Shown here: positions 1 through 18,125 of the stretch, piece by piece
How the letters are laid out: each line of letters starts with the position of its first letter
Position numbering within the stretch: the first letter of the stretch is position 1
From: Gammaproteobacteria bacterium
GTDB taxonomy: Bacteria; Pseudomonadota; Gammaproteobacteria; UBA9214
Length of the DNA: 33,189 nucleotides
Direction: 5' to 3'
NCBI GenBank assembly: GCA_003230545.1
Contig: QIFB01000035.1
Coordinates: 1-33,189, forward strand
Position numbers and translations under genes: made by a program
The notes under the pieces: generated by a model
The model's input: the letters and a program-made list of their open reading frames with translations, nothing else
What the model was told of the DNA's origin: nothing
Databases searched by the model: none

Positions 1-934
1 CATCGTGAGGGTGGCGTCACTGCTGAGCGCCATCTGTTTCGCCGGGGTCCTGCTTGACAGCGGGTTCTGGTGGCTGGCGCTGGTTATCACCCTGTTCAGC
101 TTTTTCTGGAACGCCTCACTGCCACAGTTCGAGGCGACCACCATGAACCACCTCGGCAGCGAGACCGGTCGCTACAGCAGCATTCGCCTGTGGGGCTCAG
201 TCGGCTTCATCATCACGGTCGCCGGGCTCGGTCCGCTGTTTGATGCCTATGGGCCGGGACTGCTGCCGGTCATCGTGCTGGCCCTGTTTGCGGGGATCTG
301 GTTGAGCAGCCTCAGTGTCCCGGAATCCGAGGCCGGTCACCTGCAGCTGGACCAGCAGCCGCTGCGCAAGGTAATCGGACGGCCGATTGTCGTGGCGTTG
401 CTCGGTGTGTGTTTCCTGATGCAGGCCAGCCACGGTCCGTATTACGCATTTTTCACCCTCTATCTCGAGGATTTCGGATACTCGCGCTCGCAGATCGGAC
501 AGCTCTGGGCGCTGGGGGTGCTTGCAGAAATCGGGGTTTTCCTGTTGATGCCGCGCCTGTTGCCCCGGTTCGGCGCGCGTCGCCTGATGCTGGTCGCCAC
601 GGGACTGACGTCATTGCGCTGGGTATTGATTGCACAGTTTGCCGACAGTACACCAGTGATTATCCTTGCCCAGACCCTGCATGCCGCGAGTTTTGGGCTG
701 TATCACGCAGTTGCCATCTACCTCATTCACAGCCTGTTCACAGGCACGCACCAGGGCCGGGGGCAGGCGCTATACAGCAGTATCAGCTTCGGCGCTGGTG
801 GCGCCCTCGGCAGCCTGGTCAGCGGCTACCTGTGGACCGGCATCAACCCGGAAGCCATGTTCCTGCTGGCCGCCGTGGCCAGCCTGTGTGCCTTGTGGCT
901 AACCTGGCGTGGCATCAAGATGGAAGAGTACTGA
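1..934 (+). CDS. MFS transporter, 3' part (HcaT/MFS_1-like), 5' truncated by window edge
   Basis: The reading frame is open to the left edge of the window, so the GTG at position 5 is probably internal and the true start lies upstream. About 310 residues remain. They are strongly hydrophobic with around nine predicted membrane segments. A charged stretch between segments (SVPESEAGHLQLDQQPLRK) looks like the central cytoplasmic loop between the two six-helix halves. The stretch RYSSIRLWGSVGFI followed by a GLGPLFD-type loop resembles the MFS_1-like group that contains the 3-phenylpropionate transporter HcaT. Family members are roughly 380-410 residues, so the first two or three helices are missing. 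The protein would be an inner-membrane secondary transporter. The substrate cannot be read from the sequence. It lies 83 nt upstream of leuC and may end an unrelated transcription unit. Confidence 0.8.
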   Translation, partial: IVRVASLLSAICFAGVLLDSGFWWLALVITLFSFFWNASLPQFEATTMNHLGSETGRYSSIRLWGSVGFIITVAGLGPLFDAYGPGLLPVIVLALFAGIWLSSLSVPESEAGHLQLDQQPLRKVIGRPIVVALLGVCFLMQASHGPYYAFFTLYLEDFGYSRSQIGQLWALGVLAEIGVFLLMPRLLPRFGARRLMLVATGLTSLRWVLIAQFADSTPVIILAQTLHAASFGLYHAVAIYLIHSLFTGTHQGRGQALYSSISFGAGGALGSLVSGYLWTGINPEAMFLLAAVASLCALWLTWRGIKMEEY

Positions 935-15220: not shown

Positions 15221-15245
15221 GTTCAGGATATCTGACAACCGGATT

Positions 15246-16757
15246 ATGTGTGGCATTATCGGCATTGTGGCCAACGGGCCAGCCAACCAGGCGATCTATG
15301 ACGGCCTGACGGTATTGCAGCACCGCGGCCAGGATGCAGCAGGCATCATGACCTGCGATGGCAGTCATCTGCACCTGCGCAAGAGCAACGGCCTGGTGCG
15401 TGATACCTTCCACACACGGCACATGCTGCGCCTGCTTGGCAGTATGGGTATCGGTCATGTGCGCTATCCAACCGCAGGCTGCGAGAGCTCGGCCGAGGCA
15501 CAGCCGTTCTACGTAAATTCTCCCTACGGAATCAGCCTTGCACACAACGGCAACCTGACCAATGCAAATACCCTGAAGCAGGAACTGTTCCAGGAAGACC
15601 TGCGCCAGATCAACACGGAATCCGATTCCGAAATCCTGCTCAACGTATTTGCCCACGAGCTGCAGCGACAGGGCAAGTTACGCATGGAAGTCAGTGATGT
15701 CTTCAGTGCCGTTACCGGGGTACACCGACGCTGCGAGGGCGCCTATGCCGCGATTGCCATGATTACCGGGTACGGTATTCTGGGCTTCCGCGATCCCTGC
15801 GGCATTCGCCCGGTCGTTTATGGAAAACGTGAAACGCCCGCTGGTACGGATTACATCATTGCTTCCGAAAGTGTTGCACTGGATGTGCTGGGCTTCGAGC
15901 TGATAAGGGACATCGCACCGGGTGAAGCCGTTTTCATCGGGCTTGACGGCCAGGTGCATACCCGGCAATGCGCCGCCAAGGTAATACATTCACCCTGTAT
16001 CTTTGAATTTGTCTATCTCGCCAGACCGGACTCGATCATTGACAATATCTCGGTCTACAAGGCACGCCTGCGCATGGGCGACCGCCTGGCGGAGAAAATA
16101 CGCAGGGTGCGCCCTGATCACGATTTCGACGTCGTGATCCCGATACCGGATACCAGTCGCACCTCCGCGCTGCAGCTGGCCTACAGGCTGGGCCTGAAAT
16201 ACCGGGAAGGTTTCATGAAGAACCGCTACATCGGCAGGACCTTTATCATGCCGGGCCAGCAACAGCGCAAGAAATCCGTACGCCAGAAGCTCAACGCCAT
16301 TGACCTCGAATTCAGCGGCAAGAACGTCCTGCTGGTAGACGACTCTATCGTGCGTGGCACCACTTCATCCCAGATCATCCAGATGGCACGCGATGCGGGC
16401 GCAAACAAGGTCTACTTCGCCTCGGCGGCACCCCCGGTACGGTTTCCGAACGTCTATGGAATCGACATGCCCGCCGTGGATGAACTGATTGCACACGGCC
16501 GCACCGAGGAGGAAGTGCAACAGGAGATCGGTGCGGACTGGCTTGTTTACCAGGATCTCGATGACCTGATTGAAGCAGTCAGCAAGGGGAATCCGGATAT
16601 CGAACGGTTTGACAGCTCGGTATTTACCGGTGAGTACATCACCGGCAATGTTGGATCTGATTACCTGAACGGCCTGCGGGCAGCTCGCAATGATTCAGCC
16701 AAGAGCGACCGGCGCAGCAGCGATGACGAGGCCATTGACCTGCACAACACGGCGTAA
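15246..16757 (+). CDS. purF: Amidophosphoribosyltransferase
   Basis: PurF makes 5-phosphoribosylamine from PRPP and glutamine, the committed step of purine synthesis. The start is set at 15246 because processing must expose Cys2 (MCGIIGIV) as the catalytic N-terminal nucleophile; longer frames would bury it. The product is 503 residues, like E. coli PurF, with no clostridial/Bacillus-type propeptide. The glutaminase motifs [18 protein letters not shown] and HNGNLTN are intact. So is the PRPP-binding loop [14 protein letters not shown]. The final ~35 residues are charged and poorly conserved in appearance. It ends the long leu-trp-acc-pur block. Confidence 0.98.
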
Positions 16758-16770
16758 GCCAGCGCCTGTA

Positions 16771-16799
16771 TTGACAGACTTGACGGCCTGAACTAGTCT
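16771..16799 (+). promoter_or_regulatory. sigma70-type promoter for metZ
   Basis: A perfect -35 TTGACA (16771-16776) is followed by a 17-bp spacer and TAGTCT (16794-16799) as the -10. Transcription would begin near 16806, immediately before the riboswitch. This placement makes the purF-metZ gap a self-contained regulatory region. Confidence 0.7.
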
Positions 16800-16805
16800 G
16801 GCCGG

Positions 16806-16860
16806 ATATGCGCCGATTTGATTTTAGCTTGCGGGCGCCCTACAAATACAGCTAAGCGAC
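16806..16860 (+). promoter_or_regulatory. SAM-II riboswitch
   Basis: The segment matches the SAM-II (metA motif) H-type pseudoknot. P1 pairs GCGCC (16810-16814) with GGCGC (16834-16838). The first loop carries the conserved GATTTGA. The pseudoknot helix pairs TTAGCT (16824-16829) with AGCTAA (16850-16855). The conserved TACAAATACAGCTAA stretch precedes the 3' strand. SAM-II aptamers bind S-adenosylmethionine and shut down methionine-synthesis genes. The position, between a promoter and metZ, fits this role. Most known examples are alphaproteobacterial. The assignment is from memory of the consensus and the base pairing. Confidence 0.85.
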
Positions 16861-16863
16861 GGC

Positions 16864-16897
16864 ACCTGCTTTCGCCTGGCTGAGAGCGGGTTTTTTT
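16864..16897 (+). terminator. Terminator-like hairpin in the metZ leader
   Basis: ACCTGCT (16864-16870) pairs with AGCGGGT (16885-16891), seven pairs including one G-U, followed by a run of seven T. It sits just downstream of the SAM-II aptamer and 35 nt before metZ. It could be the expression platform, with premature termination when SAM is bound. Alternatively, it ends the purF transcript. Confidence 0.6.
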
Positions 16898-16931
16898 ATG
16901 CCCTGTTTTTTTCACCCTCTGGAGAAGACCG

Positions 16932-18125
16932 ATGGCAGACACGCACGATGGTCCGGATTTCGAGACACTCGCAATCCGTGCCGGCCAGTCAAGGACCGGC
17001 GAGGGGGAGCACGCCGAACCGATCTTCCCGACATCCAGCTATGTCTTCGAGAGCGCGGCGGCGGCCGCAGCCCGTTTTTCCGGGGATGAGCCGGGTAATA
17101 TCTATTCACGGTTTACCAATCCGACCGTACGCACCTTTGAACAACGACTGGCCGCCCTCGAAGGCGGGGAGTGCTGCGTCGCCACGTCATCCGGTATGGC
17201 TGCGATCCTGTCAACCTGCGCAGGGCTGCTCAAGGCCGGTGACCACGTGGTATGTTCACGCAGTGTGTTCGGGACCACCACGGTACTGTTCTCGACCTAC
17301 CTCGCCAGGTTCGGCATCGGGACGACCTTTGTGCCACTCGCAGACCTCGATGCCTGGGAACAGGCCATCCGGCCGGAAACGCAATTACTGTTCCTGGAAA
17401 CACCGTCCAACCCCCTGACCGAACTGGTCGATATCCGGGCACTGGCCGCGCTGGCAAAGGCGCACGACGGTATTCTCGCGGTGGATAATGTCTTATGCAC
17501 GCCCGCCCTCCAGAGGCCACTCGAACTGGGCGCGGATATCGTCATCCACTCGGCCACCAAGTACATCGACGGCCAGGGCCGCTGCGTCGGCGGGGCCGTC
17601 GTCGGGGATGCGGAGCGCGTCGGCAAGGAGATCTATGGTTTCCTGCGCACTGCAGGTCCGACCATGAGTCCCTTTAATGCCTGGGTCTTTCTCAAGGGGC
17701 TCGAAACCCTGGCGCTGCGCATGCGCGCGCACTGCGACCATGCGCTCGAGATTGCCCGCTGGCTGGAACAACAGCCACAGGTTGCACGCGTGTTTTACCC
17801 CGGACTTGAATCGCATCCCCAGCATGCACTGGCCGGCAGCCAGCAGCAGGGCTACGGGGGCATCGTGTCCTTCGAGGTTGCCGGTGGCAAGGACCCGGCC
17901 TGGTCATTGATTGACGCGATGCGGGTGTTTTCCATTACGGCAAACCTGGGCGATACCAAGAGCACCATCACACATCCGGCGACGACGACGCACGGCCGCC
18001 TGACTCCGGAACAGCGCACCGATACCGGAATTTCCGATGGCCTGGTCCGCCTGGCCGTGGGACTCGAATCCGTGAACGACCTGAGGTCTGATCTTGAGCG
18101 GGGACTCGCAGCCGCCAGTCGCTGA
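16932..18125 (+). CDS. metZ: O-succinylhomoserine sulfhydrylase
   Basis: MetZ makes homocysteine directly from O-succinylhomoserine and sulfide, with pyridoxal phosphate. The 397-residue protein belongs to the Cys/Met metabolism PLP family. Visible motifs are SNPxxE-like ETPSNPLTELVD, the PLP lysine Lys210 in SATKYIDGQGR, and NLGDTKSTITHPATTTHGRL near the C-terminus. The opening (ETLAIRAGQSRTGEGEHAEPIF) is typical of the MetZ subgroup, but the substrate (succinyl versus acetyl) is inferred from similarity and gene order after purF. A TGGAG element precedes the ATG. Upstream sits a SAM-II riboswitch, so expression should fall when SAM is plentiful. Confidence 0.93.
   Translation: MADTHDGPDFETLAIRAGQSRTGEGEHAEPIFPTSSYVFESAAAAAARFSGDEPGNIYSRFTNPTVRTFEQRLAALEGGECCVATSSGMAAILSTCAGLLKAGDHVVCSRSVFGTTTVLFSTYLARFGIGTTFVPLADLDAWEQAIRPETQLLFLETPSNPLTELVDIRALAALAKAHDGILAVDNVLCTPALQRPLELGADIVIHSATKYIDGQGRCVGGAVVGDAERVGKEIYGFLRTAGPTMSPFNAWVFLKGLETLALRMRAHCDHALEIARWLEQQPQVARVFYPGLESHPQHALAGSQQQGYGGIVSFEVAGGKDPAWSLIDAMRVFSITANLGDTKSTITHPATTTHGRLTPEQRTDTGISDGLVRLAVGLESVNDLRSDLERGLAAASR

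Follow-up and report, generated by a model that had tools for sequence, protein, structure and literature searches.

A divergent SAM-II-type element upstream of metZ in a gammaproteobacterium, with a promoter and a predicted transcriptional terminator

The gap between purF and metZ in the 33,189-nucleotide stretch of DNA analysed here (the window) is 174 bases long and carries a compact series of regulatory features (Table 1). In order, it holds a promoter, the sequence GCGCC-GATTTGATTTTAGCTTGC-G-GGCGC-CCTACAAATACA-GCTAA-GCGACGG, then ACCTGC...GCGGGT, seven T, a GGAG and the ATG of metZ. The named MetZ proteins nearest to that of the window, among the matches listed, are 73-76% identical to it and belong to Gammaproteobacteria, Proteobacteria, Thiogranum and Chromatiales, which fits the gammaproteobacterial origin given in the initial annotation of this DNA.

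Table 1. Features of the purF-metZ region of the window and the evidence for each
Feature	Position	Strand	Evidence or description
purF, upstream neighbour	15237..16757	+	NCBIfam TIGR01134, 515.1 bits (cut-off 350)
Sigma-70-type promoter TTGACA-17-TAGTCT	16771..16799	+	Sequence; TTGACA 16771-16776, TAGTCT 16794-16799
Stem P1	16810..16838	+	GCGCC 16810-16814 with GGCGC 16834-16838; encloses L1 and the P2 5' strand
L1, GAUUUGA	from 16815	+	Sequence; GAUUUG motif
Pseudoknot P2 5' strand, AGCUUGC	16826-16832	+	Includes UUGC 16829-16832
Pseudoknot P2 3' strand, GCUAA-GCGA (SAM-pocket strand)	16851..16859	+	GCUAA 16851-16855; A47 absent; in relatives GCUAAAGCGA
Predicted antiterminator, CAGCUA-GCGA-GGC / GCU-UCGC-UGGCUG	16849..16882	+	Folding, -18.3 kcal/mol
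Intrinsic terminator	16864..16897	+	Stem 16864-16891, -15.2 kcal/mol; U-tract 16891-16897
Shine-Dalgarno-like GGAG (~16920) and metZ ATG (16932)	16919..16935	+	Sequence; Shine-Dalgarno ~60 nt past the aptamer, outside P2
metZ, O-succinylhomoserine sulfhydrylase, 397 aa	16932..18125	+	NCBIfam NF006003, 691.6 bits (cut-off 522)

Positions 16810-16859 make up an H-pseudoknot aptamer of the SAM-II type. Its core (a 5-bp P1, GATTTG, TTGC, the P1 partner strand and GCTAA, in this order and spacing) is found once in the window and is absent from 20 Mb of sequence simulated with an equal dinucleotide make-up, and the pocket bases U10-U12, U20, U21, G22, C23, G42, C43, U44, A45 and A46 are all present, within GAUUU, UUGC and GCUAA. 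The Rfam model SAM_alpha (RF00521), the sole riboswitch family to match there, aligns from end to end over 16800-16875 with 16.9 bits (E 0.13) against a cut-off of 36; at gathering thresholds Rfam reports tRNAs only, and RF00521 has no match in the window's own genome at E<=0.001. The initial annotation had named a sub-threshold score in this model as grounds for giving up the assignment, and formally the score is of that kind, but the homologues rescue it. The model leans on alphaproteobacteria, and at permissive settings it gives 25-42 bits among relatives of the window, most of them 25-36, with three above the cut-off (L027, L161 and L061; the scores above it are 42.1, 40.4 and 39.2 bits). 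A relative from the window's own genus (L003) reaches 29.4 bits against the 16.9 of the window, whose copy stands at the low end of a clear series of scores. When the 189-base leader was compared with 57 relatives, 32 had a match at E<=0.01 (best 4e-39, in the same genus).

From an alignment of 31 gamma-type elements (A2) a covariance model of beta- and gammaproteobacterial sequences, R1, was built with P1 only. Among 398 genomes sampled across the phylum, RF00521 matches in 83 and R1 in 75; within the window's class, RF00521 scores 26-39 bits and passes its cut-off in two genomes of this sample, and R1 finds the element in the window's own genome and in 37 others, with some weak matches among them. 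Detection is reciprocal, since RF00521 finds gamma-type sites and R1 recovers many classical RF00521 sites outside the class (among them G101, G121, G188 and G258, E 1e-7 to 1e-5), the sites common to both models including G101:C2:16586 and G121:C1:637158 in alphaproteobacteria. In a sample of the class itself, 179 of the 369 genomes, from 131 of the 272 genera, have an R1 match. A pattern scan located the element, among the matches listed, in named genomes of Nitrosospira, Methylophilales HTCC2181, Rhodocyclus, Thauera, Zoogloea, Herminiimonas and Halomonas, and further in Thiogranum, Chromatiales, Bosea, Bradyrhizobium, Microvirga and others. Because its score lies under the gathering cut-off, the window element is best described as a divergent SAM-II-type element and not as a member of the curated family RF00521.

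The pseudoknot was examined in a joint alignment (A3) of 35 sequences, 22 gamma-type and 13 classical. In the SAM-II register 89% of cells are paired, versus 38-50% when the partners are slid, and two-sided changes occur at four pairs of P1 and four of P2a; the P2b pocket pairs UU:AA and GC:GC are invariant. The changes in P1 extend across alpha-, beta- and gammaproteobacteria (CG/UA, CG/GC/UA and CG/UG/UA). At the level of the family the sequences thus form an H-type pseudoknot, with P1 and with a P2 made of the 3' part of L1 and the downstream strand. A P2 register UCAGCU:AGCUAA, which is one reading of the pseudoknot of Leyn et al., was also tried and has zero covariation in P2, whereas the SAM-II register covaries.

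The pair of hexamers reported in the initial annotation, TTGACA and TAGTCT 17 bases apart, is indeed there. A promoter scanner does not list this promoter, TAGTCT sharing too few bases with the consensus; the same architecture (TTGA[CG]-16..18-TAnnnT) precedes 70 of the 116 gamma-type elements, where shuffled sequence would give 0.5. As P1 starts mostly 6-11 nt past the end of the -10 box in these 70 elements, the leader RNA would begin as the aptamer, and transcription is expected to start at about 16806.

The genes that follow the gamma-type elements were identified by comparing the downstream DNA with six reference proteins (tblastn), MetZ, MetX, MetK, MetN, MetF and MetY; the last five references were taken from the loci and have the expected best NCBIfam match, that of MetN being below the curated cut-off. 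The gene is metZ in 76 cases, metX in 8, metK in 8, metN in 5, metY in 3, metF in 1 and none of these in 15. Two of the unlabelled downstream genes (L178 and L180) read like metE. The element thus precedes methionine and SAM genes, metZ here and metZ, metX, metK, metN, metY or metF in relatives, as is typical of SAM-II, and the presence of metK, coding for SAM synthetase, favours SAM as the signal.

Some genomes carry more than one such element. Five genomes outside the class (G063, G386, G410, G414 and G420) each harbor two kinds of site, one classical (SAM_alpha) and one gamma-type; in G414, for example, these are L073 and L074, the latter located before a metN-like gene. Tandem elements are present at L161, L162, L163-L165 (genome G653) and L186 (G006), where a gamma-type aptamer with its own terminator comes first and another GATTT...TTGC...GCTAA core, lacking a U-tract, lies some 40 nt further on. 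This second core precedes a hairpin near a start codon, and the downstream genes do not resemble methionine genes; Pelagibacter has a SAM-II/SAM-V tandem of similar layout. Finally, at four loci outside the class (L084, L089, L100 and L101) a gamma-type aptamer is accompanied, 120-170 nt downstream, by another core that scores weakly with R1 (21-24 bits), and at L084, L100 and L101 these dual cores lie 5' of metY/metZ-like genes.

The hairpin followed by seven T that the initial annotation described is present. In the window sequence alone it is not significant (one terminator-like hairpin found against 0.4 expected), but a terminator hairpin lies 3' of 97 of the 116 gamma-type elements. Its 5' arm and the 3' strand of the aptamer helix P2 together make up the predicted antiterminator, and folds of the whole leader with the antiterminator or with the terminator have energies of -26.8 and -28.5 kcal/mol, less than 2 kcal/mol apart. 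Throughout the window's own family the contiguous complement is short and, taken alone, lacks significance; in the window it is limited to GCGA:UCGC (p 0.59 for this locus, L001), and the antiterminator hairpin, which contains 1x1 mismatches, emerges from folding only. In many relatives, the pseudoknot 3' strand GCUAAAGCG is complementary to the terminator 5' arm over 9-12 bp (for example in L022, L025, L118, L129, L152 and L163). Compared with single-nucleotide shuffles, and in sequences that are related to one another, the pairing of the P2 3' strand with the terminator arm beats 95% of shuffles in 54% of the 97 gamma-type elements. The partners also covary (GCG:YGC, CAG:CUG, GAC:GUU). When the segment from GCUAA to the terminator loop is folded, the median number of the 8 core bases that pair with the terminator arm is 7, versus 2.2 with a shuffled tail, and the median energies are -13.0 kcal/mol for the antiterminator folds versus -14.6 for the terminator. 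In the window's own family the antiterminator pairing is shifted a few bases 3' of GCUAAA. Transcriptional control, which the initial annotation had proposed from the hairpin, is thus supported by this complementarity and its covariation across relatives. One relative (L028) has GCAGGC in place of GCGGGC in the aptamer and a downstream hairpin CCTGC...GCAGG; as no U-tract follows this hairpin, that copy may work other than by intrinsic termination.

Together, homologues, covariation, regulon and the antiterminator analysis support the view that metZ is preceded by an element of the SAM-II type that has a promoter of its own and a terminator of transcription, and the region very probably acts as a cis-acting transcription attenuator of metZ of the SAM-II riboswitch kind. 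Transcription would start directly at the aptamer. At low SAM, GCUAA-GCGA and its flanks would pair with the 5' arm of the terminator to form the antiterminator, and RNA polymerase would continue into metZ. With ample SAM the aptamer would close as an H-type pseudoknot through P1 and P2 and sequester GCUAA-GCGA, so that the terminator could form and metZ would be turned off. Since the pseudoknot and the antiterminator compete for one strand, ligand binding should favour the terminator. The sequence data bearing on this scheme are the conservation of the element, the covariation of both aptamer helices, the complementarity and covariation of the antiterminator, the mutual exclusivity of the pairings, the conserved promoter and the methionine/SAM regulon, and from these we infer SAM as the ligand, the direction of the switch and termination in vivo.

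The initial annotation spoke of a pseudoknot with all conserved SAM-II elements, which is borne out for P1, GAUUUG, UUGC and GCUAA but not for A47 in the numbering of the crystal structure: the base 3' of GCUAA is a G in the window (GCUAAG), one A being missing. The fully conserved residues of the SAM-II pocket are U10-U12, U20, U21, G22, C23, G42, C43, U44 and A45-A47, and in the crystal structure A47 is in contact with the methionine moiety of SAM, at the amino and carboxylate groups (PMC3764141). With A47 missing, binding of SAM by the window copy is not assured. An A follows GCTAA in 145 of 149 elements extracted from the loci, a set for which GATTTG and TTGC were required, and a G in four; it is also present in all 120 further elements from named genomes, where the search pattern left this position free (265 of 269 elements overall). 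The four elements without A47 (the window, L004, L013 and L021) all belong to the window's own family, and on the MetZ tree they lie on four separate tips, the well-supported branches forcing at least three changes.

It is possible, if clearly less probable than the main reading, that the window copy belongs to the same family and has lost or changed its ligand sensing, binding SAM weakly or another ligand in the absence of A47 and acting as a fixed or retuned attenuator. The recurrent loss of A47 on the tree would agree with this, as would a C-to-U change in the window that makes UUAGCU:AGCUAA fully complementary and could lock the SAM-free fold. However, P1, L1, UUGC, GCUAA, the antiterminator, the terminator and the promoter are all kept, which speaks against decay, and the missing A is possibly a base error in an incomplete genome assembly (85% complete), even if three other genomes share the state. 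More doubtful is a further proposal, that a SAM-II lineage in this family repeatedly lost A47 and kept every other part of the switch, so that it may now be a naturally occurring variant whose affinity or selectivity for the ligand has changed. Changes of this sort are seen in other riboswitch classes.

For an element of the SAM-II kind, two other modes of action have to be weighed. Leyn et al. (2014) speculated about pairing with the terminator stem, and the antiterminator might accordingly be formed by the P1 3' strand GCGGG and the terminator arm CCUGC, a pairing that is possible in the window and in most relatives. It is nevertheless improbable, as the P1 3' strand fares no better than shuffles (it beats 95% of shuffles in 5% of the 97 elements, median p 0.29) and the P2 strand is better than shuffles. 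A translational SAM-II switch in which P2 hides the ribosome-binding site, a mode for which two riboswitches, those of Sargasso Sea metX and of Sinorhizobium meliloti metA, have been proposed or shown as examples (PMC9373788), is slightly less probable again: the Shine-Dalgarno sequence of metZ lies behind the terminator and at a distance from the aptamer that argues against direct hiding, and terminators follow most gamma-type elements. Least probable of all is a small RNA gene on the minus strand, as implied by RF02424 (Bp2_287), for which there are a 23.4-bit match on that strand of the window (16810-16875; the cut-off of 70 bits on the annotated strand is not reached) and a Burkholderia candidate seen by RT-PCR (PMC3521395), but the promoter, the pseudoknot covariation and the terminator all run in the direction of metZ, and four genomes of betaproteobacterial type have RF02424 on the other strand from the aptamer core and metZ.

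The attenuator reading agrees with what has been published for SAM-II. Barrick and Breaker (2007) found SAM-II in gammaproteobacteria and described it as the only aptamer most often tied to regulatory terminators in alpha- and betaproteobacteria (PMC2258182), and Meyer et al. (2009) also list it in Beta- and Gammaproteobacteria (PMC2704228). The initial annotation treated a SAM-II with a terminator in a gammaproteobacterium as a surprise, which is overstated, since such beta- and gammaproteobacterial cases were already in the first of these papers. The feature is real and its kind was correctly named, one missing pocket base having been overlooked; both this type of switch and the fact that these bacteria combine it with terminators are already known, and novelty is low. 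What the analysis adds is that most SAM-II members from Beta- and Gammaproteobacteria escape the curated model, that a concrete antiterminator pairing can be proposed for a class of riboswitches in which control of transcription has received little study, and that natural variants without A47 offer material for probing the role of this base; the recurrent loss of A47 and the explicit antiterminator are mainly of specialist interest. In addition, three separate names become linked, SAM_alpha, the metXZ element and Bp2_287, the last with an Rfam model on the opposite strand; a paper uniting the three was not found in the open-access literature.

The metXZ RNA element, which Leyn et al. (2014, PMC4239095) reported from betaproteobacteria, is described as lying before metX or metZ, with a pseudoknot and a terminator/antiterminator, its GC-rich regions 3 and 4 being the ones thought to pair with the terminator stem. 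It shares with the window element its place, the pseudoknot and the terminator hairpin and U-tract that follow, and Nitrosospira and Methylophilales, two of the metZ example groups there, carry the window-type element before metZ. Likened by place and published description, the two are apparently the same, although the element is not recognised as SAM-II in that description. Bp2_Cand287 (Khoo et al. 2012, PMC3521395), a proposed cis-acting methionine element also present in gammaproteobacteria, has the same purF, metZ and metX neighbours, but it is annotated as an sRNA. RF02424 reaches 107-204 bits, on the strand opposite metZ, in three other genomes and appears to model the opposite strand of the riboswitch; in four genomes (L181-L184) its matches are antisense to both the aptamer core and metZ. 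SAM-V shares the SAM-II binding core (PMC2704228), but even at permissive thresholds it matches neither the window nor any of 20 relatives. A close parallel is the SAM-II riboswitch of S. meliloti metZ (RF00521), with the same H-type P1/L1/P2 pseudoknot, GAUUUG, UUGC and GCUAA(A) motifs, one-base linker before the P1 3' strand, metZ target and terminator-based control, the last being predicted there (PMC9373788). Compared with this type, the window differs by its score under the cut-off and the absence of A47, P1 is GCGCC:GGCGC here and CGUGG:CCACG there, P2a has 2-4 bp instead of about 6, and the antiterminator uses GCUAAAGCG here whereas there it uses the GGCCGG part of P2.
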